This document shows positions 5,463 through 57,534 of a stretch of 64,000 nt of DNA, one piece after another. The notes below the pieces were generated by a model. That model ran no database searches. It saw nothing but the letters and a program-made list of their open reading frames with translations, and was not told the origin of the DNA. Origin of the DNA: Pelosinus fermentans JBW45 (GTDB lineage: Bacteria; Bacillota; Negativicutes; DSM-13327); assembly GCF_000271665.2 (NCBI RefSeq), contig NZ_CP010978.1:1396501-1460500 (forward strand). Direction: 5' to 3'. Position 1 is the first letter of the stretch. The number at the start of each line of letters is the position of its first letter. The translations under genes were made by a program, and so were the position numbers.

Positions 5463-5755
5463 AAGAAGACTATAATGACGATGAATGGAAGAGTAATTGT
5501 ATTGGTAATATTCACAGCGAGCTGGAAATGGTGTAAGCCAGTAATATGAAATACAATGAAAATCATCCACGAGTTGCGGGCTGAAGAATTAGTAAGCTGC
5601 GCCGGGCCTCTTTTAGAGGAATTGCTGCCCGTTATTGCGGCGAGGTATAGAGTATTTATGCTTCGTACCTATGAGATATTATGGTTTATGCCATAATAAT
5701 TTGGGTGGTATCGCGGATTAACCTCCGTCCCTTTATAAGGGACGGAGGTCTTTTA
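5463..5755 (+). promoter_or_regulatory. T-box riboswitch, probably tRNA-Ile, upstream of ilvB
   Basis: Stem I carries the AGCGAGCTGG...GGTGTAAGCC signature (from about 5516). The T-box core GGGTGGTATCGCGG is at 5703-5716, followed by terminator stem ACCTCCGTCCC / GGGACGGAGGT (5721-5749) and a T run. In the lower loop of stem I, ATC (5562-5564) sits between GAAA and ATCCAC, where TCCA can pair with TGGA near the start of the stem; this fits an isoleucine AUC specifier. UGGU in the antiterminator matches an ACCA tRNA end. Uncharged tRNA would allow read-through into ilvBN. Confidence 0.9.
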
Positions 5756-39437: not shown

Positions 39438-39514
39438 TGGTGACCCCGGAGGGATTCGAACCCCCGACCTATTGATTCGAAGTCAAGTGCTCTATCCAGC
39501 TGAGCTACGGAGCC
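39438..39514 (-). tRNA. tRNA-Arg (anticodon TCG)
   Basis: 77 bases with encoded CCA. Acceptor stem GGCTCCG / CGGGGTC (one G-U), D-arm GCTC-AGCTGGATA-GAGC, anticodon loop CTTCGAA giving TCG for CGA and related codons, T-arm GGGGG-TTCGAAT-CCCTC. Closing pair 27-43 of the anticodon stem is a C-T mismatch; the other four pairs are sound. Confidence 0.95.
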
Positions 39515-48033: not shown

Positions 48034-48978
48034 TTATTGATAAAATAAATTGGACAGATAGTCGATGGCTTCATCTACTCGACTGCCGGGATTAACAGCA
48101 AACAGGCAATATGGCAGCTGGTAGACCCGATTTTCCTGTACGGCTTTTAACTTTCTCCAGCTAGGGTGAAGTGCCAATTCATTGCGAATTTGGTCACTGA
48201 CCTTAGTGTCATAGCTATGGGTAATTAGCAAGATCAGGTCTGGATTGGTCTGGATCGCAATATCAAGACTGAGGGGAGCATATCCCATGGCATTGCCACC
48301 GCCTACGCTTTGGACAACATTCATTGCATTGAGGCGGCAGAGAAGATCGCCGATAAAACTGTTTGGCAGTGCCATATGAAAACTTTCGGCAGATCCCCAG
48401 ACAACGAGGACTTTTGGTGAGGGTTTATTTTTGCTTTTCGCTTGGACCTGCTGCAATTTGCTATCCAAACGATGAATCACCTGATAAGCTTGCCGCGAAT
48501 GATCTGTCAATTCACCATAAAAGCGCAGGGTTTGGCTAATCTGCTGGTAATTATTTAATCTTTGAAGGTATACTAAAATACCCGCTTTTTCTAATGAGGC
48601 AAGGATTGGCTGACGCAAATGAATATCAGTAGTCAAAACTAAGTCGGGTTTTAAAGCGATAATCTGATCAATGTTGGGAGTTGGTGTCTCGCCTACAGAT
48701 GGCACGTCTTTAATTTTTTCCATCAGATCCGATGACAGTGCCATAGTACTGGGGCGACCGACTAATTCTCCGCCAACGGCATAATATAAATCAACATTAG
48801 AAGCGTTAAGAGCAATAAGCCGCAACGATCTACCCTTTTTAATGGTTTGTATTAAACTGCATTTCGGACACTGGATTTCAATATACTTTACCTGACCTTT
48901 GAATAAGAGCCTGTTGCATTTTGAACAACGGCATTCATTTGAACCAGTGTTATTTATCATGTTATGACGTATTTTCAT
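48034..48978 (-). CDS. Com-type zinc ribbon fused to a signal-less heme-type periplasmic binding protein domain
   Basis: 314 aa. Residues 15-47 form a Com-like zinc ribbon (C18-x2-C21 ... C37-x2-C40: CSKCNRLLFKGQVKYIEIQC, then PKC), closely like phage Mu Com, an RNA-binding translational activator. Residues about 52-314 are a class III binding protein fold (FecB/HmuT/BtuF type), about half identical to the transporter binding protein at 49739 and retaining YAVGG, GRP and LFAVNPG. There is no signal peptide or anchor, so it must be cytoplasmic. ATG follows TGGAGGA and the frame is unbroken. I infer a ligand-sensing regulator; ligand (heme?) and target are untested. Confidence 0.85.
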   Translation of the reverse strand: MKIRHNMINNTGSNECRCSKCNRLLFKGQVKYIEIQCPKCSLIQTIKKGRSLRLIALNASNVDLYYAVGGELVGRPSTMALSSDLMEKIKDVPSVGETPTPNIDQIIALKPDLVLTTDIHLRQPILASLEKAGILVYLQRLNNYQQISQTLRFYGELTDHSRQAYQVIHRLDSKLQQVQAKSKNKPSPKVLVVWGSAESFHMALPNSFIGDLLCRLNAMNVVQSVGGGNAMGYAPLSLDIAIQTNPDLILLITHSYDTKVSDQIRNELALHPSWRKLKAVQENRVYQLPYCLFAVNPGSRVDEAIDYLSNLFYQ

Positions 48979-49020
48979 GATATTCCTCCATTAACAGCAA
49001 ATTAATATATAAATAAAAAA

Positions 49021-49062
49021 CCCCGTGCGAAATACAATTTCATCACGGAGCTCTGGGCTCTC
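49021..49062 (-). promoter_or_regulatory. Leader attenuator, copy 1 (upstream of the zinc-ribbon fusion gene)
   Basis: Minus strand: AGAGAGCC box (49062-49055), three bases, AGCTCCGTG, inner stem GAAAT-TGT-ATTTC, CACGGGG and six T (to 49015). The 9-bp outer stem includes three G-U or A-U ends. It lies between the promoter at 49126-49098 and the start codon at 48978, so it can stop leader transcription. Confidence 0.8.
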
Positions 49063-49075
49063 TTTGTTTTATATT

Positions 49076-49126
49076 TTCTATAATGATTATTATTATCATT
49101 ATAGAAAATGGATATAATTTTGTCAA
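49076..49126 (-). promoter_or_regulatory. Fur-controlled promoter of the zinc-ribbon fusion gene
   Basis: Minus strand TTGACA (49126-49121), exactly 17 bases, TATAAT (49103-49098), both perfect. A large palindrome TTCTATAATGA...TCATTATAGAA (49076-49106), rich in ATAAT/ATTAT Fur half-sites, covers -10 and +1. Confidence 0.85.
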
Positions 49127-49154
49127 TTCAAATATATATTTTTATAAAAATAAA

Positions 49155-49183
49155 TTGACTTTGATAATGGTTATCAATATACT
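49155..49183 (+). promoter_or_regulatory. Fur-controlled promoter of the free Com-like gene
   Basis: TTGACT (49155-49160), 17-base spacer TTGATAATGGTTATCAA which is itself a Fur-like palindrome, TATACT (49178-49183). Nearly identical to the promoter at 49519. Confidence 0.85.
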
Positions 49184-49231
49184 AAATAGTAAAGGTAAAT
49201 ACTCCCTTATCTTACTATGGGGGAAAAGATC

Positions 49232-49260
49232 ATGCCACACCACTATGGCAGGTGATTTTT
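49232..49260 (+). promoter_or_regulatory. Terminator-like hairpin in the Com gene leader
   Basis: ATGCCA...TGGCA stem with a competing CACC/GGTG pairing, followed by ATTTTT, between the promoter and start codon. It differs in sequence from the AGAGAGCC elements. Confidence 0.45.
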
Positions 49261-49286
49261 AGATCGTATAATTTGGAGTGATGCAC

Positions 49287-49475
49287 ATGGAGATAAAGGA
49301 TAAAGAATTGCGGTATGCAAAACCAAAATGGCCAGAAGTACGTTGTGGTCAATGTAATCGCTTATTATTTCGTGGAATCGTTGAAGATATGGAGATTAAG
49401 TGCTCACGGTGTGGCGAAATTCAGTATATAGGCGATTGTAAGCAAGAAACCAGAATGAACGTTTGCAACAAGTAA
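49287..49475 (+). CDS. Free-standing Com-like zinc-ribbon protein
   Basis: 62 aa from ATG 49287 (TTTGGAG eight bases upstream; ATG 49281 is too close). Zinc ribbon C20-x2-C23 ... C39-x2-C42 (RCGQCNRLLFRG, then EIKCSRCGEI), the same family as phage Mu Com and clearly paralogous to the ribbon of the fusion at 48034. No phage genes are nearby. Probably a nucleic-acid (RNA) binding regulator of this iron/heme cluster; the target is inferred to be the structured leaders. Confidence 0.85.
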   Translation: MEIKDKELRYAKPKWPEVRCGQCNRLLFRGIVEDMEIKCSRCGEIQYIGDCKQETRMNVCNK

Positions 49476-49518
49476 GCTGGAGTTTCGTGAAAACATTGTT
49501 ATATTCTCAAAAAAGATA

Positions 49519-49547
49519 TTGACTTTGATAATTGTTATCAATATACT
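49519..49547 (+). promoter_or_regulatory. Fur-controlled promoter of the heme-type transporter operon
   Basis: TTGACT (49519-49524), 17 bases forming TTGATAA-TTG-TTATCAA, TATACT (49542-49547). The Fur-like palindrome fills the spacer exactly. Start near 49554. Confidence 0.85.
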
Positions 49548-49624
49548 ATAGAACAATAATAGCATTTGGTGGTTCTGTACTAAACAATACAATACAATAC
49601 AAATGGTTAGCAAAATAACCGATT

Positions 49625-49670
49625 AGAGAGCCAAGAGCTCCGTGCCAGTAGTAATACGCACGGAGCTTTC
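49625..49670 (+). promoter_or_regulatory. Leader attenuator, copy 2 (upstream of the transporter operon)
   Basis: AGAGAGCC (49625-49632), three bases, AGCTCCGTG (49636-49644), 14-base loop, CACGGAGCT (49659-49667), TTTC then ATTTATTTTA. A perfect 9-bp stem. It sits about 70 bases after the predicted +1 and 69 bases before the binding-protein start. Confidence 0.8.
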
Positions 49671-49738
49671 ATTTATTTTAATAGACCCGAGATATTAAGA
49701 GCCTATGGCTCGTGAAAATCAAGAAGTGAGGTGCGAAG

Positions 49739-50701
49739 ATGAATAGAATGACAATTGGAATAATCGTTTTATTATTGGCTGTCAGTGGATTTTTCTTGTT
49801 TAGAGGACAGTCAGAACCAGTGGTAAATCAGTCAACTCGCTATAGTGTAACTGACAGTGCTGGCAGACAGGTGGAAATCCCCCGTCAGCCCCAGCGGGTG
49901 ATTGTTTTGAATGCTTCTAATCTGGAACTATTCTATGCAGTCGGCGGGAAGGTAGTTGGACGCCCCGCTACAGAGGCTTTGCCACAGGCTGTTAAGGATG
50001 CTGTCCAGCAGATCCCGACTGTTGGCGTTACTCCCAATCCTAATATTGAACAGATTATTGGGTTAAAACCTGATTTGATTTTAGGAGTTAACATGCCATT
50101 TCATCATAATTTGATTCCAGTGTTAGATAAAGCGGGCATTCCCATTCTGCTGCAATCCCTTGATAACTATCAACAAATTATCGACACACTGCGTTTTTAT
50201 GGAGAACTAACGGGAAAACCGGATCAGGCAGACGTACAAATCAACCAGATTCAGTCCCGCTACGAAGAGATAATGAATCATAATAAAGATCGTGTGGCCC
50301 CTAAAGTAGTAGTTGTATGGGGATCTCCGGAAAGCTTCAATATGGCAACATCCCGCAGCTTTAGCGGAGATTTGCTGAAACGTCTGGGGGCGGTTAATAT
50401 TGCTGACCAGGGAGATGACGGCAGTGGACATATGGGCTATGTACCATTAAGCATGGAATATGTTGCGAAGCAAAATCCGGATATGATTTTTTTGATTACC
50501 CATAGTTCCGATGAAAAAATCAATGAGAAATTTCGCAATGAATTGTCTAATCATCCTGCATGGCGGGGACTAAATGCTGTCAAATCCAATCAAGTTCATC
50601 AGTTGCCCTATCGTTTATTTGCTGTAAATCCTGGTACGCAGGTGGGTGAAGCATTGACTGTTTTAGCTGGGTTTTTATATCCGGAGGTGACGAAGCAATG
50701 A
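49739..50701 (+). CDS. Heme/siderophore-type ABC transporter substrate-binding protein
   Basis: 320 aa. N-terminal hydrophobic segment (MTIGIIVLLLAVSGFFLF) as uncleaved anchor or signal; no lipobox Cys. Class III binding fold: VTDSAGRQVEIPRQPQRVIV, NASNLELFYAVGGKVVGRP and the C-terminal HQLPYRLFAVNPGTQVGEAL. Delivers ligand to the permease downstream, whose start overlaps by four bases. Heme is the likely ligand because of hutW and chaN in the same cluster; cobamide or siderophore cannot be excluded. Confidence 0.88.
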   Translation: MNRMTIGIIVLLLAVSGFFLFRGQSEPVVNQSTRYSVTDSAGRQVEIPRQPQRVIVLNASNLELFYAVGGKVVGRPATEALPQAVKDAVQQIPTVGVTPNPNIEQIIGLKPDLILGVNMPFHHNLIPVLDKAGIPILLQSLDNYQQIIDTLRFYGELTGKPDQADVQINQIQSRYEEIMNHNKDRVAPKVVVVWGSPESFNMATSRSFSGDLLKRLGAVNIADQGDDGSGHMGYVPLSMEYVAKQNPDMIFLITHSSDEKINEKFRNELSNHPAWRGLNAVKSNQVHQLPYRLFAVNPGTQVGEALTVLAGFLYPEVTKQ

Positions 50702-51702
50702 GAGAAGTCGCAATCGATCCTCGTGGGACTTGGCGAACGGGGATCAGTATAACTGGGCTGGTTGCGCTAGTGGCGGCCTTGTTTTGGGGGATCAGAGTGG
50801 GAGCTGTACCCTTTAGTGCTTATGATATCTGGAATGTATTTATTGCTCCGGCCAGCAATGAAGCCTATCAAATTATCTATAATATCAGGGTGCCCCGGGT
50901 ATTGGTTGGCGCGTTAACCGGGATCAATTTAGCTTTAGCCGGCTGCATCTTGCAAGGGGTGCTGCGCAATCCTTTAGCCGATCCTGGAATTATTGGAGTA
51001 TCCGCGGGAGCTGGTCTGGCAGCTATGTCTGTGATGATTTTATGGCCCGGGCTTATGGCATTGGTGCCGGCGGTTGCTTTCATTGGAGCCCTGCTGGCTG
51101 CTGGAATCGTATTTTTATTGTCCTGGGATCGGGGAATTCAGCCTCTTAGGCTGATCCTAGCCGGCGTGGCCCTGGCTGCCTTCTTTGGCGGCGGCATGAG
51201 TGCTCTTATGGTCTTTCACTCCGATAAAGTGCAGGGGACGGTCAACTGGATGGCTGGGGGATTTCAAGGGCGCAGCTGGAATCATGTGCAGATGATTCTG
51301 CCTTATAGCTTGGTCGGAGTTTTAGGGACTATGCTTTCTTACCGTCATTTAAATGCATTGCAGTTAGGTGATGAAGTTGCCAAAGGTTTGGGCATAAGAG
51401 TGGAAAAAGCGCGATTTTTCCTGGTTGTTTTGGCAGCCTTGCTGGCAGCTTCGGCAGTCAGCGTGGCGGGTCTCTTAGGCTTTGTTGGACTTATTATCCC
51501 CCATATTGCCCGCATGCTGGTTGGTTCGGATTTTGAGTATCTGATGCCCTGTGCAGCCGTACTGGGAGCTACGATTGTAGTAGCCGCCGATACTGTCGCC
51601 CGTACCATATTCAGTCCGGTGGAAGTACCAGTAGGAATCTTTATGGCCTTTTTAGGAGCTCCGTTCTTTATTTATTTACTGCGAAAGGGGATGCAGCGAT
51701 GA
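50698..51702 (+). CDS. FecCD-family ABC transporter permease
   Basis: 334 aa, nine to ten membrane helices. Family marks: IRVPRVLVGALTGINLALAG near the N-terminus, LRNPLADPGIIGVSAGAGL, and GLLGFVGLIIPHIARMLVG, where the cytoplasmic loop contacts the ATPase. Coupled by ATGA overlaps to both neighbours. Inner-membrane channel of the heme-type importer. Confidence 0.94.
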   Translation: MREVAIDPRGTWRTGISITGLVALVAALFWGIRVGAVPFSAYDIWNVFIAPASNEAYQIIYNIRVPRVLVGALTGINLALAGCILQGVLRNPLADPGIIGVSAGAGLAAMSVMILWPGLMALVPAVAFIGALLAAGIVFLLSWDRGIQPLRLILAGVALAAFFGGGMSALMVFHSDKVQGTVNWMAGGFQGRSWNHVQMILPYSLVGVLGTMLSYRHLNALQLGDEVAKGLGIRVEKARFFLVVLAALLAASAVSVAGLLGFVGLIIPHIARMLVGSDFEYLMPCAAVLGATIVVAADTVARTIFSPVEVPVGIFMAFLGAPFFIYLLRKGMQR

Positions 51703-52505
51703 ATCATACCATTGAAGCCCAATCTATTAAACTTGGCTATGGCAGCAAGGTGATCATTCCAGAAATGGATATTGTAATCGATAAACCGGAAATTATCTCA
51801 ATTATTGGACCAAACGGATCAGGGAAATCCACCTTATTGAAAGCATTAAGCCGAATATTGATTCCTTTGGCTGGCTGCGTCTTGCTGGCTGGCAAGGATA
51901 TTCATCAATTGCAACCACGACAGGTAGCTAAAATTATGGCGATACTGCCTCAGACAGTACATGCGCCGGGAGACATGACAGTTTATGATCTGGTGGCATA
52001 TGGGCGTATGCCCTATAAAAAAATGTTTGAAAAATTGGACAGTGATGATCAAGAGTGTATGGCAGCGGCACTGGAAGCCACTGGTATCCGGAAAATGCTG
52101 CACCGGCGGCTGGACAGTTTGTCGGGAGGGGAAAGGCAGCGGGCTTGGCTGGCTATGGCCCTGGCCCAGGAACCTCGCCTGCTTTTATTAGATGAACCGA
52201 CAACCTATCTGGATATTCATCACCAGCTGGAATTAATGAAGCTGGTTCGCAAACTGCATCAGGATATGCAGATTACCGTTATTATGGTTTTGCATGATTT
52301 AAACCATGCAGCTCGCTTTAGCCAGCGTATGATTGCGGTCAAAGACGGTCTGCTATTTGCGGATGGGCCAGTGGAAGAAGTATTTACTGTAGAAAATTTA
52401 CGGGCTTTATACGGAGTCGAAACAACGATTATGACGATTGAGCAAGGAGGGAGTTCGCATCGTGTCTGTTTTCCTCATGACAGCTGCTTGACTCAGGGGG
52501 CATGA
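51699..52505 (+). CDS. ABC transporter ATP-binding protein (heme/iron-complex type)
   Basis: 268 aa. Walker A IGPNGSGKSTLLK, Q-loop region ILPQTVHAPGDMTVYDLVAYG, signature LSGGERQRAWLAMALAQ, Walker B LLLLDEPTTYLDI, H-loop VLHDLNHAA. Drives import through the permease. Overlaps it by four bases; 73 bases to the flavodoxin gene. Confidence 0.95.
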   Translation: MNHTIEAQSIKLGYGSKVIIPEMDIVIDKPEIISIIGPNGSGKSTLLKALSRILIPLAGCVLLAGKDIHQLQPRQVAKIMAILPQTVHAPGDMTVYDLVAYGRMPYKKMFEKLDSDDQECMAAALEATGIRKMLHRRLDSLSGGERQRAWLAMALAQEPRLLLLDEPTTYLDIHHQLELMKLVRKLHQDMQITVIMVLHDLNHAARFSQRMIAVKDGLLFADGPVEEVFTVENLRALYGVETTIMTIEQGGSSHRVCFPHDSCLTQGA

Positions 52506-52578
52506 CTATGCACTGACTGTATGATGAATAATAGCACAGTGGTAAAATTGGATTTTTTAAAAAATAGGAGGTTTTTCT

Positions 52579-53127
52579 ATGCAAACGTTAGTTGTTTATT
52601 CCAGTCTTACGGGCAATACCAAAAAGGTGGCAGAGGCGATCTATGAAGTCTTTGGTGCAAGGGCTGCGTTGTTTCCAGTTGAAACAGCACCGGCGCCGAC
52701 AAACTATGATTTTGTGATAGTCGGCTTTTGGGTTGACAAAGGAACAGCTGATAAGAAGGCCCAGGAGTATCTCAAGACCATTCAGGATAAACCAGTTGCC
52801 TTATTTGCTACATTAGGGGCCTATCCTGATTCAGAGCATGCTGCCAGCAGCCTCAAGAATGCTGCTGCATTCTTGGATGTTAGCAATCAATTGGTGGGAA
52901 CTTTTATATGCCAGGGGAAAATAGATCCGAAGCTAATTGAACAATTTAAAAATATGCCGGGAAATCATCCTCATGCTGCTACCCCAGAACGGATGGAACG
53001 CTATAAGAAAGCTGCCAGCCATCCTGATTCCAGCGATCTAGAGGCGGCTCAGGCTGTTTTTGTAGATATAAAAAATAGCTTGAATCTAGTTGCAGGGCAG
53101 GGGAAAGGTGAGGTGACTGCCTCTTGA
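52579..53127 (+). CDS. Flavodoxin-family protein, probable electron donor for heme breakdown
   Basis: 182 aa. FMN phosphate loop YSSLTGNTKKVAEAI at the N-terminus, then DFVIVGFWVDKGTADKKAQEYL and LFATLGAYPDSEHA, as in long-chain flavodoxins with an extended C-terminus. RBS AGGAGG before ATG. Overlaps the radical SAM gene. The pairing resembles Fusobacterium HmuF-HmuW, in which a flavodoxin supports radical-SAM heme degradation. Confidence 0.88.
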   Translation: MQTLVVYSSLTGNTKKVAEAIYEVFGARAALFPVETAPAPTNYDFVIVGFWVDKGTADKKAQEYLKTIQDKPVALFATLGAYPDSEHAASSLKNAAAFLDVSNQLVGTFICQGKIDPKLIEQFKNMPGNHPHAATPERMERYKKAASHPDSSDLEAAQAVFVDIKNSLNLVAGQGKGEVTAS

Positions 53128-54530
53128 GGGGAAGTAGACTAAAACAAATTCTGGCGAACATGAGCCCAGATCAATATGCCTTGACCGTTGGCACAGCAGC
53201 CGAAGAGTCGCTGGTAGAAGCCTTTGTAAAACGCCGAGTTGTTCATGCCGGCGTCCGAGGCAAACCGATCATGCCGGGGGAATGGCAGGCGACATGGCAG
53301 TCTTTACTGGGACAAAATCAAAAACCTGAACAACGTGTAGCGTATATTCATATTCCCTTTTGCCGGCATCGTTGTTTATACTGCGGTTTTTTTCAAAATT
53401 ATTCAGCGGAAGAGTTGGAAGCCGTTTATATTGATCATTTAATTAAAGAACTGCAGATGAGCCGGGATAGCGCTTATCTAGCCAGTGGACCGGTTAATGC
53501 CGTATTTATCGGGGGTGGGACTCCCAGTACTCTGGCACCTCAGCAGGTTGCCAGGCTGCTGGACGCTATTCGTGACTGTTTGCCCCTAGCCAATGATTAT
53601 GAATTGACACTGGAAGGGAGGGTTAATGACTTAGTTCCAGCTAAGATGGAAGCTTGGCTGGATCATGGGGTAAACCGTGTATCCATCGGTGTTCAGTCCT
53701 TCAACCCAGAAGTACGGCGAGGGGTTGGCCGGCTGGATGATACGCAGACAATTCTTAAGAGGCTGGAATTGTTGACAAGTTATAATCAGGCTGCCGTTAT
53801 TATTGATTTGATTTATGGTCTGCCGAACCAGACTAACCAGGTTTGGGCTGATGATGTTAATCTATTGAAAACGGCAGCCATTGATGGAATGGATTTATAT
53901 CAGTTAAACATTTATGAAGACAGTGCCTTGCAGCAGGCCATCAATGCCGGGAAGCTGCCGCCGGCAGCTACAACGGCCCAGCAAGCTCAAATGTTTGCTG
54001 CGGCCGAAGCGGAACTGTCAGCCCATGTATTTTCCCGGCTCAGTATTTGCCACTGGAGGAAGACCCATCGTGAGCGAAGCATATACAATACCCTTACAAA
54101 GGCAGGTCACAGTGTGATTCCCTTTGGTGCGGGTGCCGGCGGTAATATTGGCGGTGTGGCTATGTTTTTAAATCGGGATGTCGGTAACTATATTAAAAGT
54201 ATTGAGCAAGGTCATAAGCCAGTTGCTGGCATGCTGCTGCAGCCAGTCGACAGTGGTTTGCACAATATGGTTATTGGACAACTCGAGCGGGGTTATTTAC
54301 AACTTAGTGCCTTAGCAGCCTGCTATGGACCTGCTGTTTTGGAATTAGAATCATTACTGGAGATTTGGCAAGGGCGTGGGCTTCTTGAATTTGGTCCGGC
54401 AGTAGCTCGCCTGACCGTAGCTGGTCAGTTTTGGTATATGAACATCGCCCAGTCAGTATTAGAATGCTTGCATGCTCTGCTAGATGGTGAACATTCGGTG
54501 GAAGTGCAGCCTATAGCGGCCCAAGGCTAA
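53124..54530 (+). CDS. hutW: HutW/ChuW/HmuW-type radical SAM heme-utilisation enzyme
   Basis: 468 aa. Radical SAM cluster motif HIPFCRHRCLYCGFF (CxxxCxxC), HemN-like core (FIGGGTPSTL, VNRVSIGVQSFNPEVRRGVGR, IDLIYGLPNQT) and the HutW-specific ERSIYNTLTKAG...IPFGAGAGGNIG block. Relatives open the heme ring without oxygen, releasing iron and a linear tetrapyrrole. The TTG start at 53124 overlaps the flavodoxin stop; ATG 53160 is a weaker alternative. Terminator-like attenuator copy 3 begins 17 bases after the stop. Confidence 0.92.
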   Translation: MRGSRLKQILANMSPDQYALTVGTAAEESLVEAFVKRRVVHAGVRGKPIMPGEWQATWQSLLGQNQKPEQRVAYIHIPFCRHRCLYCGFFQNYSAEELEAVYIDHLIKELQMSRDSAYLASGPVNAVFIGGGTPSTLAPQQVARLLDAIRDCLPLANDYELTLEGRVNDLVPAKMEAWLDHGVNRVSIGVQSFNPEVRRGVGRLDDTQTILKRLELLTSYNQAAVIIDLIYGLPNQTNQVWADDVNLLKTAAIDGMDLYQLNIYEDSALQQAINAGKLPPAATTAQQAQMFAAAEAELSAHVFSRLSICHWRKTHRERSIYNTLTKAGHSVIPFGAGAGGNIGGVAMFLNRDVGNYIKSIEQGHKPVAGMLLQPVDSGLHNMVIGQLERGYLQLSALAACYGPAVLELESLLEIWQGRGLLEFGPAVARLTVAGQFWYMNIAQSVLECLHALLDGEHSVEVQPIAAQG

Positions 54531-54546
54531 TTGCCGGGTCATTTTT

Positions 54547-54600
54547 AGAGAGCCTGTGAGCTCCATGACGGTCTTATTACCGCATGGAGCTTTGCTATTT
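54547..54600 (+). promoter_or_regulatory. Leader attenuator, copy 3 (between hutW and the receptor gene)
   Basis: AGAGAGCC (54547-54554), four bases, AGCTCCATG (54559-54567), inner stem CGGT/ACCG, CATGGAGCT (54583-54591), then TTTGCTATTTT. The two base changes G-to-A and C-to-T in the outer stem compensate each other relative to copy 2. No promoter lies between hutW and this element, so it may act as a conditional terminator inside the operon. Confidence 0.8.
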
Positions 54601-54706
54601 TCTATTACCAATAACTTAAGTTAATGAAAGGAGTCGATTATGAATTCAAGTTAACTCATAGATAAAGTTGTCGACTTTACTACAATATAAGAAAGGAAGA
54701 TAGTAT

Positions 54707-56650
54707 ATGAAAATGGGACAAACTCAGAAGAAAAGCAAAGTGGCGTTATTAAGTTTCGGTATTATGGCGGCATTGAGTTTGCCGGCTTACGCCGAGGAGG
54801 AACCTTACCAGTTTAGTGAGGTGGTGGTTACTGCCACTCGGACCAAGCAGAATGTGAAGGATATACCGGCCAGTGTTGAGGTCATCACCCGGCAAGATAT
54901 CGAAACCATGGGGGCTGACAGCGTAGTAGCGGCATTGAAGCTGGCGATGAATTTAAATCTTTCTGAAGCGGGAATGACAGGTAATCAGGTTAGTTTGCGT
55001 GGTATGAATACGAACCAGTCCCTAATTTTGATTGATGGTCGACGTATGGCAGGGGAAGATACGGGATCAACCATGAATTATTACGAATTAAACCGGATTA
55101 ATATTAATAATGTGGAACGGATCGAAATCGTACGGGGACCGGTTAGTTCTCTTTATGGATCAGATGCTTTGGGCGGCGTCATCAATATTATTATGCGTAA
55201 ATCGGAAAAGCCACAGACTACCGTGGGTTTGTCGAACAGCAGCAAGCAACAGAACGCTTCCTTCCGTTTTGACTTAGGTAAAGAAGGGAAATGGTCATGG
55301 GTAGTTGATACACTTTTTACCGATATTAAAGAGAGGGCACGAACAGATAGTACGAATATGTATGGACCACGCCAGTTCTATAATATCAGTGGAACATACG
55401 ATATGTCGGCAGGTAAGAACCTCGATGTCTTTTATGAAAGAATGAGTGAACATTTGAAATCGGGATTCACTGATGGCAGCAGAGATTATTATACCAATAC
55501 GAGAAATTCCTACGGTATCAATTATCGTGGTATCAATTCACGAGGTAATTATGAATTGCGGGCTTATTTTAATCAGCTGGAAAAAAATAATGATACATTG
55601 CTTGAAAGTGGAACATATAGTGACTTTGACAGAGCAAAGTATAAAACCTGGGTAGTTGATGGGAAAAATACGGTGAAATTGGATGATGAACATGTACTGA
55701 CATTTGGTGGTGAATACCGGTCGTCTGAATATCGTGGGACCAGGCTGGAAGACAATGGTGATCATGCTTCTACGATCATTGAGCATGGAATAAGCAAGTC
55801 CATATCAGAAAAAGAAATAAAATATCAGGCCGCCTACGTACAAGATGAATGGGCTGTTAATAGCAAACTTTTAATTATTCCATCCCTGCGATATGATAAC
55901 AGTAATAAATTTGGCGATGATTTTAGTCCTAAAATTGGTATGACTTACAAAATGGATAATAATTATCGCTTTAAGGCAAATTTGGGGAAAGGGTTTAAAG
56001 CACCCAGTGTCAGTGAGTTATATATGAAAATGACTCATCGCCCTATACCCAACATGACTGTTATTGTTGCTGGTAATCCAGATTTAAAACCGGAGAAATC
56101 GACTAATTATGATATAAGCTTCGAAGGAGAAAGAGGAAATGATTTTGGAAAATTAACTTACTTTTATAACGATGTTACCGATCTGATTGGAACAAACGAC
56201 ACAATGAGTTACATTCCTGGGACTGGTGTGGTTTATAATTCAAAATACATCAATATTGATAAAGCTAAGATAAGAGGCATTGAACTTGAAGCTGGAAGGC
56301 ATCTGAACGATAAATTTACGCTAAAATCTGCTTATAATTATTTGGACGCTGAAGATTCCAAAACCCATGAACGCCTGAGCAGCAGGGCAAAAAACAGGTA
56401 TTCGCTGCAGCTGCATTATGATGATATTCAAAATACGGGAATTAGTGGTATTCTATGGCATGAATGGGTGCGTGATTACCGCTATGTTGAGACTGATTAC
56501 AACTATAATACCTTAAACTTTGTGATCAACAAAAAATGGAATGATAAATATGACTCCTATTTTGGCATTGATAATATTCTCGATAAAAAAATCGATGCCC
56601 TGATCCTCGAAGGCCGTTTGTGGAGATTTGGCATGAGTATCACAATATGA
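54707..56650 (+). CDS. TonB-dependent receptor, probable heme receptor
   Basis: 647 aa. Signal peptide (IMAALSLPAYA), TonB-box-like EVVVTATR, plug domain (LILIDGRRMAGED, ERIEIVRGPVSSLYGSDALGGVINII) and a 22-strand barrel, with NPDLKPEKSTNYDI near the end as in HmuR/ColI-type receptors. The last residue is Ile rather than Phe. Starts 116 bases after attenuator copy 3 and overlaps chaN by four bases. Heme is inferred from the operon. Confidence 0.93.
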   Translation: MKMGQTQKKSKVALLSFGIMAALSLPAYAEEEPYQFSEVVVTATRTKQNVKDIPASVEVITRQDIETMGADSVVAALKLAMNLNLSEAGMTGNQVSLRGMNTNQSLILIDGRRMAGEDTGSTMNYYELNRININNVERIEIVRGPVSSLYGSDALGGVINIIMRKSEKPQTTVGLSNSSKQQNASFRFDLGKEGKWSWVVDTLFTDIKERARTDSTNMYGPRQFYNISGTYDMSAGKNLDVFYERMSEHLKSGFTDGSRDYYTNTRNSYGINYRGINSRGNYELRAYFNQLEKNNDTLLESGTYSDFDRAKYKTWVVDGKNTVKLDDEHVLTFGGEYRSSEYRGTRLEDNGDHASTIIEHGISKSISEKEIKYQAAYVQDEWAVNSKLLIIPSLRYDNSNKFGDDFSPKIGMTYKMDNNYRFKANLGKGFKAPSVSELYMKMTHRPIPNMTVIVAGNPDLKPEKSTNYDISFEGERGNDFGKLTYFYNDVTDLIGTNDTMSYIPGTGVVYNSKYINIDKAKIRGIELEAGRHLNDKFTLKSAYNYLDAEDSKTHERLSSRAKNRYSLQLHYDDIQNTGISGILWHEWVRDYRYVETDYNYNTLNFVINKKWNDKYDSYFGIDNILDKKIDALILEGRLWRFGMSITI

Positions 56651-57534
56651 AGCTAATGATGAGATCAATTACACTGCTTATTGCCATATGGATGACGTTT
56701 TTTTCTGTTCTGGTAGAAGCGAATTCAGCTGATTACCAGTGCTATGAGACTGTTTCCGGGAAAGCTGTGTCAGTGGATGATGTCAGTCAGCTATTCCGGG
56801 ATTACAATGTCATGATATTCGGCGAATACCACGATAATCAAGCCCTTCATCGTCTGGAAGAGGAGTTGTTGCGAACTGTTTATGCCCAACACTCCGCACT
56901 GACCATCTCCCTGGAAATGTTTGAACGCGATGTGCAGCAACCGCTGAATGACTATCTGGCCAGTGACATAACCGAAACTGCTTTCTTAGCCCAGTCCCGT
57001 CCCTGGCCAAACTACCAGAGTGATTACCGGCCCTTAGTCGAGTTTGCTAAAAAGGAAGGACTGCAAGTGCTTGCGGCCAACATTCCCCGACCGATGGCCT
57101 CGCACTATGCGAGGCAGAGTTCGCTGGAAGGGATTGATGAAACGATGCGGCAGTACCTGCCTGCGGTTCACCGCACTCCTGACGGTGAATACAAGCGGCG
57201 TTTCTTTACCCAGATGCAGTCCGTAAAGGCTATGCCCAAAGAGCAAATGGAGGCTTTTTATCGCGCCCAGTGCCTGAAGGATAACACTATGGCTGAAAGC
57301 ATTGTGGAGCATTACCGCCACTACCCTGATAGGAAAATCATCCATTACCAGGGGGATTTCCATGGTCGCTATCGGCTGGGCGTCGTCGAGAAACTGCAGG
57401 CGCTTGAACCGAGTTTGAGAATTCTGGTTATCACACCTGTCCTTGTGGATGACTTTGGGGACGGGGCAGTCAAGGCAAGGAATCTGCAAGCAGACGGCGA
57501 TATCGTGGTATTTGTTAAACGGACGACACTTTAA
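56647..57534 (+). CDS. chaN: ChaN-family heme-associated (DUF399) protein
   Basis: 295 aa from ATG 56647, which overlaps the receptor stop (ATGA). N-terminal signal (MRSITLLIAIWMTFFSVLVEA) without a clear lipobox. DUF399 motifs: VMIFGEYHDNQALHRLE, SLEMFERDVQQPL, VLAANIPRPMASHYAR and IHYQGDFHGRYRLG. C. jejuni ChaN binds heme and is encoded with the receptor ChaR. Here it closes the transporter-flavodoxin-hutW-receptor run, supporting heme as substrate. Confidence 0.93.
   Translation: MKLMMRSITLLIAIWMTFFSVLVEANSADYQCYETVSGKAVSVDDVSQLFRDYNVMIFGEYHDNQALHRLEEELLRTVYAQHSALTISLEMFERDVQQPLNDYLASDITETAFLAQSRPWPNYQSDYRPLVEFAKKEGLQVLAANIPRPMASHYARQSSLEGIDETMRQYLPAVHRTPDGEYKRRFFTQMQSVKAMPKEQMEAFYRAQCLKDNTMAESIVEHYRHYPDRKIIHYQGDFHGRYRLGVVEKLQALEPSLRILVITPVLVDDFGDGAVKARNLQADGDIVVFVKRTTL

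Follow-up and report, generated by a model that had tools for sequence, protein, structure and literature searches.

Three copies of a short RNA element, each consisting of a conserved box (AGAGAGCC) followed by a terminator hairpin, were identified in a 64,000-nucleotide (nt) stretch of Pelosinus fermentans JBW45 (NZ_CP010978.1, positions 1,396,501 to 1,460,500; hereafter the window), where they adjoin genes for an ATP-binding cassette (ABC) transporter, a TonB-dependent receptor and two zinc ribbons of the Com family (PF10122), one of them fused to a substrate-binding protein (SBP) domain. We interpret each copy as a probable protein-controlled transcription terminator, i.e. as the leader of a Com-dependent antitermination system, and assign this interpretation a probability of roughly 0.84 from comparative sequence analysis. 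A preliminary description of the same DNA had proposed conditional terminators that form one regulon under Com-like ribbons, and this proposal is supported by the match of the copies to the RNA motif selected in vitro by a Com protein, by co-occurrence of the element with Com, by control genomes that carry the heme-degrading enzyme HutW, by covariation in the predicted hairpin, and by the position of the elements in leaders.

The element and its predicted Com site

The pattern AGAGAGCC-N2..6-AGCTCC matches the window three times, with 0.00 matches expected from dinucleotide shuffles, and these three are the only exact matches in the whole genome of 5,380,816 bases. Each copy is followed by a hairpin and then a T-rich stretch, and the whole leaders fold as terminators at -18 to -27 kcal/mol; a simple terminator scan of positions 48980-49740, limited to loops of 3-8 letters, did not list copies 1 and 2. 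The three copies claimed in the preliminary description are thus genuine, with some corrections of detail. The first box starts at 49063, instead of 49062, and the 3' arm of copy 1 reads CACGGGGTT rather than CACGGAGCT, with the pairing, including G-T pairs, still in place. Copies 1 and 2 lie in leaders by position, since each follows a sigma-70-type promoter-like site. The placement of copy 3 had to be revised: it starts 16 nt beyond the HutW stop codon, and so lies within the operon instead of in a promoter-proximal leader. The compensatory change reported between stems (CCGTG/CACGG versus CCATG/CATGG) is real: across 11 distinct genus-level rows, 97.3% of the cells of the terminator stem are paired, a value reached by none of 500 shuffles, and double changes occur in three of ten pairs, a number reached by 26 of 500 shuffles.

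Systematic evolution of ligands by exponential enrichment (SELEX) with the Com zinc finger of Haemophilus sputorum yielded 999 sequences, 868 of which carry the bipartite form of the consensus GAGNNCC(N)2-3GAGNNCC, in which Com recognizes CC(N)2-3GAG in a hairpin loop with a C-G loop-closing pair (PMC6483171). All three window copies, which read GAG-AG-CC-N2/3-GAG-CT-CC, fit this consensus in sequence. The matching letters, GAGAGCC-N2/3-GAGCTCC, span the box plus the terminator 5' arm, the second half of the motif being the 5' arm itself, which supports a predicted Com site that extends over both the box and the 5' arm of the terminator. The earlier suggestion that AGAGAGCC is the binding site of the ribbons is therefore right in that the box is a part of the predicted site, and incomplete in that the SELEX motif also takes in the arm. 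Because the Com hairpin would use the terminator's own 5' arm, the two structures are predicted to be mutually exclusive, and Com-dependent antitermination follows as the prediction. When the RNA made before the 3' arm was folded alone, it contained GAGC(C..GA)GCTC in copies 1, 2 and 3, with a counterpart in two other genomes (G015 and G013).

The hairpin was further assessed with a relaxed scan (GARNNYY-N2..5-GARNNYC plus a terminator) of 60 loci chosen around Com or model hits, 783,134 bases in total, which returned 92 hits, versus none in the reversed sequences and one to four in each of ten Markov shuffles. A first scanner had demanded four standard Com-hairpin pairs and missed nearly all clostridial sites because of an A-C mismatch in them; the later scan rests on sequence plus terminator only. 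It restricts the letters of the outer and closing hairpin pairs and leaves the two inner pairs free. Over 91 sites (L118:5930 was judged to be chance and excluded from this tally, and the chance-like L102:6339 was retained), the inner pair N2-N3 forms in 90 and N1-N4 in 70, with 18 of the 21 failures being A-C. Among 46 distinct sites, 94.6% of the cells of the Com hairpin pair and all four pairs are changed on both sides (e.g. GAAAGCC/GAGCTTC, GAGAGTC/GAACTCC, GAGCTTC/GAAAGCC); the observed pairing, double-change cells, pair types and covariation score were reached in 0 of 500 shuffles, and the number of double-changed pairs in 2 of 500. Our alignment A7 holds 78 of 86 references, with near-copies and outliers left out (L102:6339, L105:4746, L168:229, L168:5964, L170:6678, L170:771, L178:6354 and L179:6546).

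In the proposed mechanism, the Com-recognition hairpin, GAGC-C(N)2-3GA-GCTC, would draw on the 3' part of the box and on the opening letters of the terminator 5' arm. Without Com, the 3' arm would pair with the 5' arm, the intrinsic terminator would form, and transcription would halt ahead of the genes, while a Com ribbon on the nascent hairpin would keep the 5' arm from its partner, so that no terminator would form and polymerase would read into the heme-uptake genes. Two ribbons could act in the window, the small Com protein and the Com ribbon fused to a probably cytoplasmic IsdE-like domain; the former is probably Fur-controlled, and hence would be made when iron is scarce, and the latter would link antitermination to heme or a related ligand. 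We infer binding by the window ribbons, antitermination as opposed to forced termination, Fur control and the ligand. The reverse logic, in which Com is a repressor whose binding pins the box, speeds terminator formation and shuts the operon off, appears improbable to us. It would suit the many Com genes that stand under their own element, as in negative autoregulation, and a free terminator that is already stable, yet the terminators look strong enough without help, and CC(N)2-3GAG includes letters paired at the terminator base, so that binding and terminator formation would compete. In phage Mu, moreover, where the Com site partly overlaps an inhibitory hairpin, Com destabilizes the inhibitory structure adjoining its site (PMC6483171).

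The element tracks Com rather than the heme locus

For a covariance-model search for further copies, as suggested in the preliminary description, a model (R1) built from 12 genus copies was applied to 300 class genomes. At E<=1e-5, a threshold picked after the list was seen, R1 hits occur in 22 of the 300 genomes and PF10122 in 27, with an overlap of 21 (Fisher p 6e-26; p 1e-20 when the five training genomes are left out). The sole strong hit without Com (L113, in G170) lacks the box. Of the 66 hits aligned, four that do not carry the motif (L113, L116, L121 and L122) were removed before the refined alignment, L121 coming from a genome that has Com (G048). Six Com genomes have no strong R1 hit: five of these (G015, G024, G060, G090 and G104) have the same architecture in other letters, and the sixth, G167, has a sub-cut-off match within a 531-amino-acid (aa) frame. 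The Com matches in G167, G370, G409 and G469, and probably those in G527 and G637, were judged false or partial. At the family level, the pattern was found in six of ten genomes searched; the match in G006 lies inside a coding sequence, and Com is present in exactly the other five. A DNA-pattern scan of named genomes gave 21 stretches, of which eight belong to Pelosinus, Sporomusa, Sporomusaceae or Selenomonadales records (R1 at E<=5e-9) and 13 are single matches elsewhere; the latter were taken as chance, because R1 scores just two of them, weakly (L143 at 6e-5 and L126 at 1e-4).

HutW scores over its cut-off in 101 of the 300 genomes, 23 with Com and 78 without, and the strong R1 element is present in 21 of the former and in none of the latter; the two Com-bearing exceptions, G060 and G104, carry variant elements. 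Since variants could also hide in the Com-less HutW loci, the relaxed scan was run on 40 of these 78 (618,144 bases, mostly 16 kb each) and found no sites there, compared with 70 sites in 36 of 37 Com-bearing Negativicutes loci (517,172 bases). The element thus follows the presence of Com, and the heme locus alone does not explain the association.

These counts bear on a second explanation, a single repeat family of ordinary intrinsic terminators that has nothing to do with Com and shares the box as a by-product of local duplication in a heme locus inherited as a block. Near-identical stems within the genus and the joint inheritance of the locus would agree with it, but the strong element is missing from all 78 Com-less HutW genomes, no relaxed site appears in the 40 of their loci that were scanned, the same architecture stands in different letters beside Com in unrelated operons, and the box is conserved though a terminator has no need of it, and matches the published Com ligand. 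We reject an ordinary terminator family, which we regard as highly implausible, on two grounds: the box is more conserved than a terminator requires, and it follows Com.

Regulons, other Firmicutes, phages and related systems

Outside of the class, Com was found in 20 of 398 genomes of a phylum sample, in 17 of them over the cut-off, and in many of these genomes the Com gene is flanked by a large CBS-domain-type regulator (by inspection) on one side and a thiolase/beta-oxidation operon on the other. A literal motif (GAG, A/G/T, GCC, 2-4 letters, GAGC, C/T/A, CC) is present in 13 of 14 Com regions (L167-L180), before and/or after Com, and usually has a terminator after it. A second covariance model (R2) was made from 19 phylum-sample sites; at E<=1e-5 it hits 13 of the 398 genomes, 12 with Com, nine of which had trained R2. 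With the training genomes removed, Com is present in three of four hit genomes versus 8 of the remaining 385 (p 7e-5). Further elements (L217:2819, L220:3743, L218:5304 and L219:468, in G619 and G359) lie far from Com, where they adjoin DegV-like genes or precede a corrinoid adenosyltransferase/mutase operon (mutase and DegV by inspection). Another (L222:4336, in G451) is a full GAGGGCC-ATA-GAGCCCC terminator with an integrase-like open reading frame (ORF; by inspection) downstream, and no PF10122 protein was found in that genome.

In phages Mu, B3 and AP3, the motif (GAATGCC-TGC-GAGCATC, GAGGGCC-GA-GAGCCTC and GAGGGCC-AC-GAGCCCC, respectively) lies near the com end, where it coincides with the annotated start of the modification gene or falls a short way upstream of it. 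We also scanned 65 uncultivated viral Com loci, out of 80 fetched, from 60 bases before to 300 bases after the match end. The relaxed motif occurs in 41 of the 65, in five with a terminator (4 of 65 in the reversed control, 0 of 65 on the opposite strand), and the strict SELEX consensus in 15, versus 2 when reversed. Across 32 distinct viral sites, 94% of the hairpin pairs form, compared with 76% in shuffled sites, and none of 5000 shuffles reached the observed value; the viral pattern itself restricts the outer and closing pairs, and the two inner pairs form in 25 and 32 of the 32. The annotated terminator after Com in Bacillus phage Slash (L226:1600-1680) has at its start GAGTGCC and GAGCACC separated by 11 nt, which may be a variant of the switch with a long spacer.

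That the copies belong in leaders rather than at random gene ends, as first described, is supported by the genes downstream of the 92 sites. When the best-matching same-strand ORF starting within 450 nt was called, a rule under which a nearer gene may be passed over, 79 sites precede genes of our reference classes, with a median of 70 nt from T tract to start and 64 of the 79 within 150 nt. The classes comprise 22 SBPs as best match (second-type fusions included), 8 first-type fusions, 14 TonB receptors, 8 TonB, 8 ExbB, 12 thiolases and 7 Com; the remaining 13 sites are upstream of further ORFs. Downstream examples confirmed by Pfam include TonB, ExbB, a TonB receptor, an aminotransferase, a tripartite ATP-independent periplasmic (TRAP) SBP, a flavodoxin, a thiolase and a corrinoid adenosyltransferase. 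Judged by these genes, the Com/element system is not limited to iron or heme, and extends to beta-oxidation, TRAP-transporter and aminotransferase operons. At L117 and L119, Com ribbons adjoin GntR-type regulators (by inspection), and the element stands before an aminotransferase gene or a TRAP transporter; these are putative Com regulons outside iron and fat metabolism. A riboswitch, or a leader bound by some other regulator (e.g. one that senses heme or iron) while Com acts at another place, might be expected from the iron and heme genes regulated in most Negativicutes loci seen, but is highly improbable given that Rfam covariance models at gathering score match nothing at the elements, on which ground a known riboswitch or Rfam leader was rejected, that apart from the terminator no more than about 16 nt are conserved, and that the regulated genes vary between groups while Com is constant.

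Several observations weigh against Com-dependent antitermination. The SELEX consensus comes from the Haemophilus Com zinc finger, not from a Pelosinus ribbon. Since the Com hairpin is much less stable than the terminator, Com must act during transcription, and in partial folds of nine examples the Com hairpin is complete in five, has three of four pairs in two (G024 and L174) and is absent from the other two (G060 and L169). The A-C mismatch of the clostridial sites (18 of 91) is in the second pair of the hairpin, and the alternative hairpin is therefore weak in them. One clostridial Com locus (L177) yielded no site, another (L171) has the motif and no evident terminator, and one genome (G451) has a strong element and no detected Com. 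The leader of the small Com gene in the window is without the element, unlike its counterparts in G082, G118, G041 and G094. At E<=0.05, moreover, R1 hits 85 of the 300 class genomes, Com-less ones too; such weak hits, like those of R2 in 45 of 398 genomes at E<=0.01, were excluded as elements, and many of them span only the terminator part of the model (from R1 position 11 or R2 position 13).

Among the closest known systems is the translational activation of mom mRNA by Com of phage Mu, with the same protein family and RNA motif as in the window. In Mu, the inhibitory hairpin is a stem over the start codon of the DNA-modification gene, and Com acts at translation initiation; in the window, an intrinsic transcription terminator takes the place of that stem, heme/TonB and other metabolic operons lie downstream of the leaders instead of a mom-like gene, and some ribbons are fused to SBP domains. 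The antiterminators BglG, LicT and SacY bind short hairpins, the ribonucleic antiterminators (RAT), that share letters with the terminator 5' arm and exclude the terminator. The same kind of overlap, between the predicted protein-binding hairpin and the terminator 5' arm, is found in all three window copies, so the working principle would be alike, with an unrelated protein (a small zinc ribbon) and a different RNA motif; no CAT or PRD domain was found in the ribbons, in which PF10122, plus PF01497 in the fusion, were the only matches at E<=0.001. ANTAR antiterminators (EutV, NasR) are similar in combining an RNA-binding with a sensor domain and in setting a terminator against a protein-bound structure; they belong to a different protein family, and there is one short hairpin per site here.

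Our literature search, with most subscription papers outside its coverage, found Com only as a phage translational regulator and no report of Com antitermination, and the accessible part of PMC4324140 does not mention a use of Com; we therefore treat transcriptional use of Com as unreported in the literature searched. If the proposed antitermination is correct, the same small ribbon that is known from phage Mu would be a widespread bacterial transcription antiterminator whose RNA code is simple and recognizable. It would govern heme uptake and the anaerobic breakdown of heme in Negativicutes, as well as beta-oxidation operons elsewhere in the Firmicutes, and its predictable site (GARNNYC-N2..5-GARNNYC plus a terminator) could be used for regulon finding. 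One protein-RNA pair would serve translation or transcription by swapping the neighboring hairpin, and the SBP fusion would be a natural ligand-controlled RNA switch.

The heme locus of the window and the Com-SBP fusions

The genes around the three copies (Table 1) point to a locus for heme uptake and anaerobic heme breakdown, since HutW (TIGR04107, 496.7 bits; cut-off 400), an IsdE-like SBP, a flavodoxin, a ChaN-like protein and a TonB receptor are encoded. The permease and ATPase were named by sequence inspection and gene order, as were a TolC-like gene and ExbB-ExbD-TonB, which follow the fusion gene on the same strand. Fur-like boxes at 49079-49103 and 49163-49181 were assigned against what we take to be the Fur consensus.

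Table 1. Coordinates of the elements, promoter-like sites and genes in the window
Feature	Position	Strand	Remarks
Copy 1, Com-site/terminator element	49005..49063	-	Leader of Com-SBP fusion gene; R1 71.9 bits; pattern match 49063-49047; box AGAGAGCC 49063-49056; second half GAGCTCC 49053-49047 (terminator 5' arm), followed by the 3' arm and a T tract
Copy 2, same element	49625..49681	+	Leader of heme ABC operon; R1 66.0 bits; pattern match 49625-49641; box 49625-49632; second half 49635-49641
Copy 3, same element	54547..54605	+	Between HutW gene and TonB receptor gene; R1 67.3 bits; pattern match 54547-54564; box 54547-54554; second half 54558-54564
Sigma-70-type promoter-like site for copy 1	49098..49126	-	TTGACA-17-TATAAT, 12/12
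Promoter-like site for copy 2	49519..49547	+	10/12
Promoter-like site upstream of small Com gene	49155..49183	+	10/12; overlaps Fur-like box 49163-49181
Fur-box-like palindrome	49079..49103		Within copy 1 promoter; 2-3 mismatches to assumed consensus
Com zinc ribbon fused to IsdE-like substrate-binding domain	48034..48978	-	PF10122 1.8e-5; PF01497 1.6e-29
Com-like zinc ribbon alone	49287..49475	+	62 aa; PF10122 1.3e-9
ABC transporter	49739..52505	+	Downstream of copy 2; SBP (IsdE-like) 49739-50701, permease 50698-51702, ATPase 51699-52505
Flavodoxin and HutW/ChuW heme-degrading radical S-adenosylmethionine enzyme	52579..54530	+	Flavodoxin 52579-53127; HutW/ChuW 53124-54530
TonB-dependent receptor and ChaN-like heme-binding protein	54707-56650; 56620-57534	+	Downstream of copy 3

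Both Com-type ribbons of the locus, one alone and one fused to the SBP domain, are zinc ribbons with two CxxC pairs that score above the PF10122 cut-off of 22.9 bits (37.8 and 24.5 bits, respectively), and an Arg, four Cys, a Leu and an Ile are invariant across 17 aligned Com proteins, those of Mu, B3 and AP3 included. The small Com is a candidate antiterminator, and the fusion is a candidate ligand-sensing antiterminator. A small terminator-like hairpin at 49233-49250, in the leader of the small Com gene, is without the GAG motif and may control Com differently.

Com-SBP fusions form two lineages, of 11 and 7 sequences, on fully supported branches (100/100) apart from 20 transporter SBPs, and the window fusion is 48% identical to the SBP of the neighboring transporter. 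The fused domain has as its best solved relative by sequence IsdE (2q8p, 2.8e-23), a heme-binding lipoprotein of the class III substrate-binding proteins, and IsdE is also its top NCBIfam model, at 148 bits (under the cut-off of 298.65). The N-terminus of the transporter SBP is hydrophobic; in the fusion, where no hydrophobic N-terminus was seen, the Com ribbon stands there instead, and the SBP domain of the fusion should therefore sit in the cytoplasm, where we infer that it acts as a sensor. The axial heme ligands of IsdE are, we assume, a Met and a His; in the alignment to 2q8p, the His of IsdE (...LPHGM...) meets a His of the fusion (...ITHSY...), and the Met (...GQPMEPN...) meets a Thr. 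An AlphaFold2 model of the fusion, made from a four-sequence alignment, was uninformative (mean predicted local distance difference test score 42). We give even odds to a broader proposal, in which Com-SBP fusions would be one-component RNA regulators of a new type, whose cytoplasmic class III SBP domain, akin to the heme-binding protein of the transporter, senses the imported ligand and switches RNA binding by the phage-type ribbon, such that a substrate antiterminates its own uptake operon, and in which Com ribbons of Firmicutes and certain phages would constitute a previously undescribed system of antitermination, the source or a descendant of the Mu-type translational switch through exchange of the inhibitory hairpin.

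The window has only two Rfam matches at gathering level, a T-box leader at 5472-5735 (+) and a tRNA gene at 39441-39514 (-), and the related loci include a c-di-GMP-I riboswitch (L105:18566-18655) and a group II intron (L168:12763-12934).

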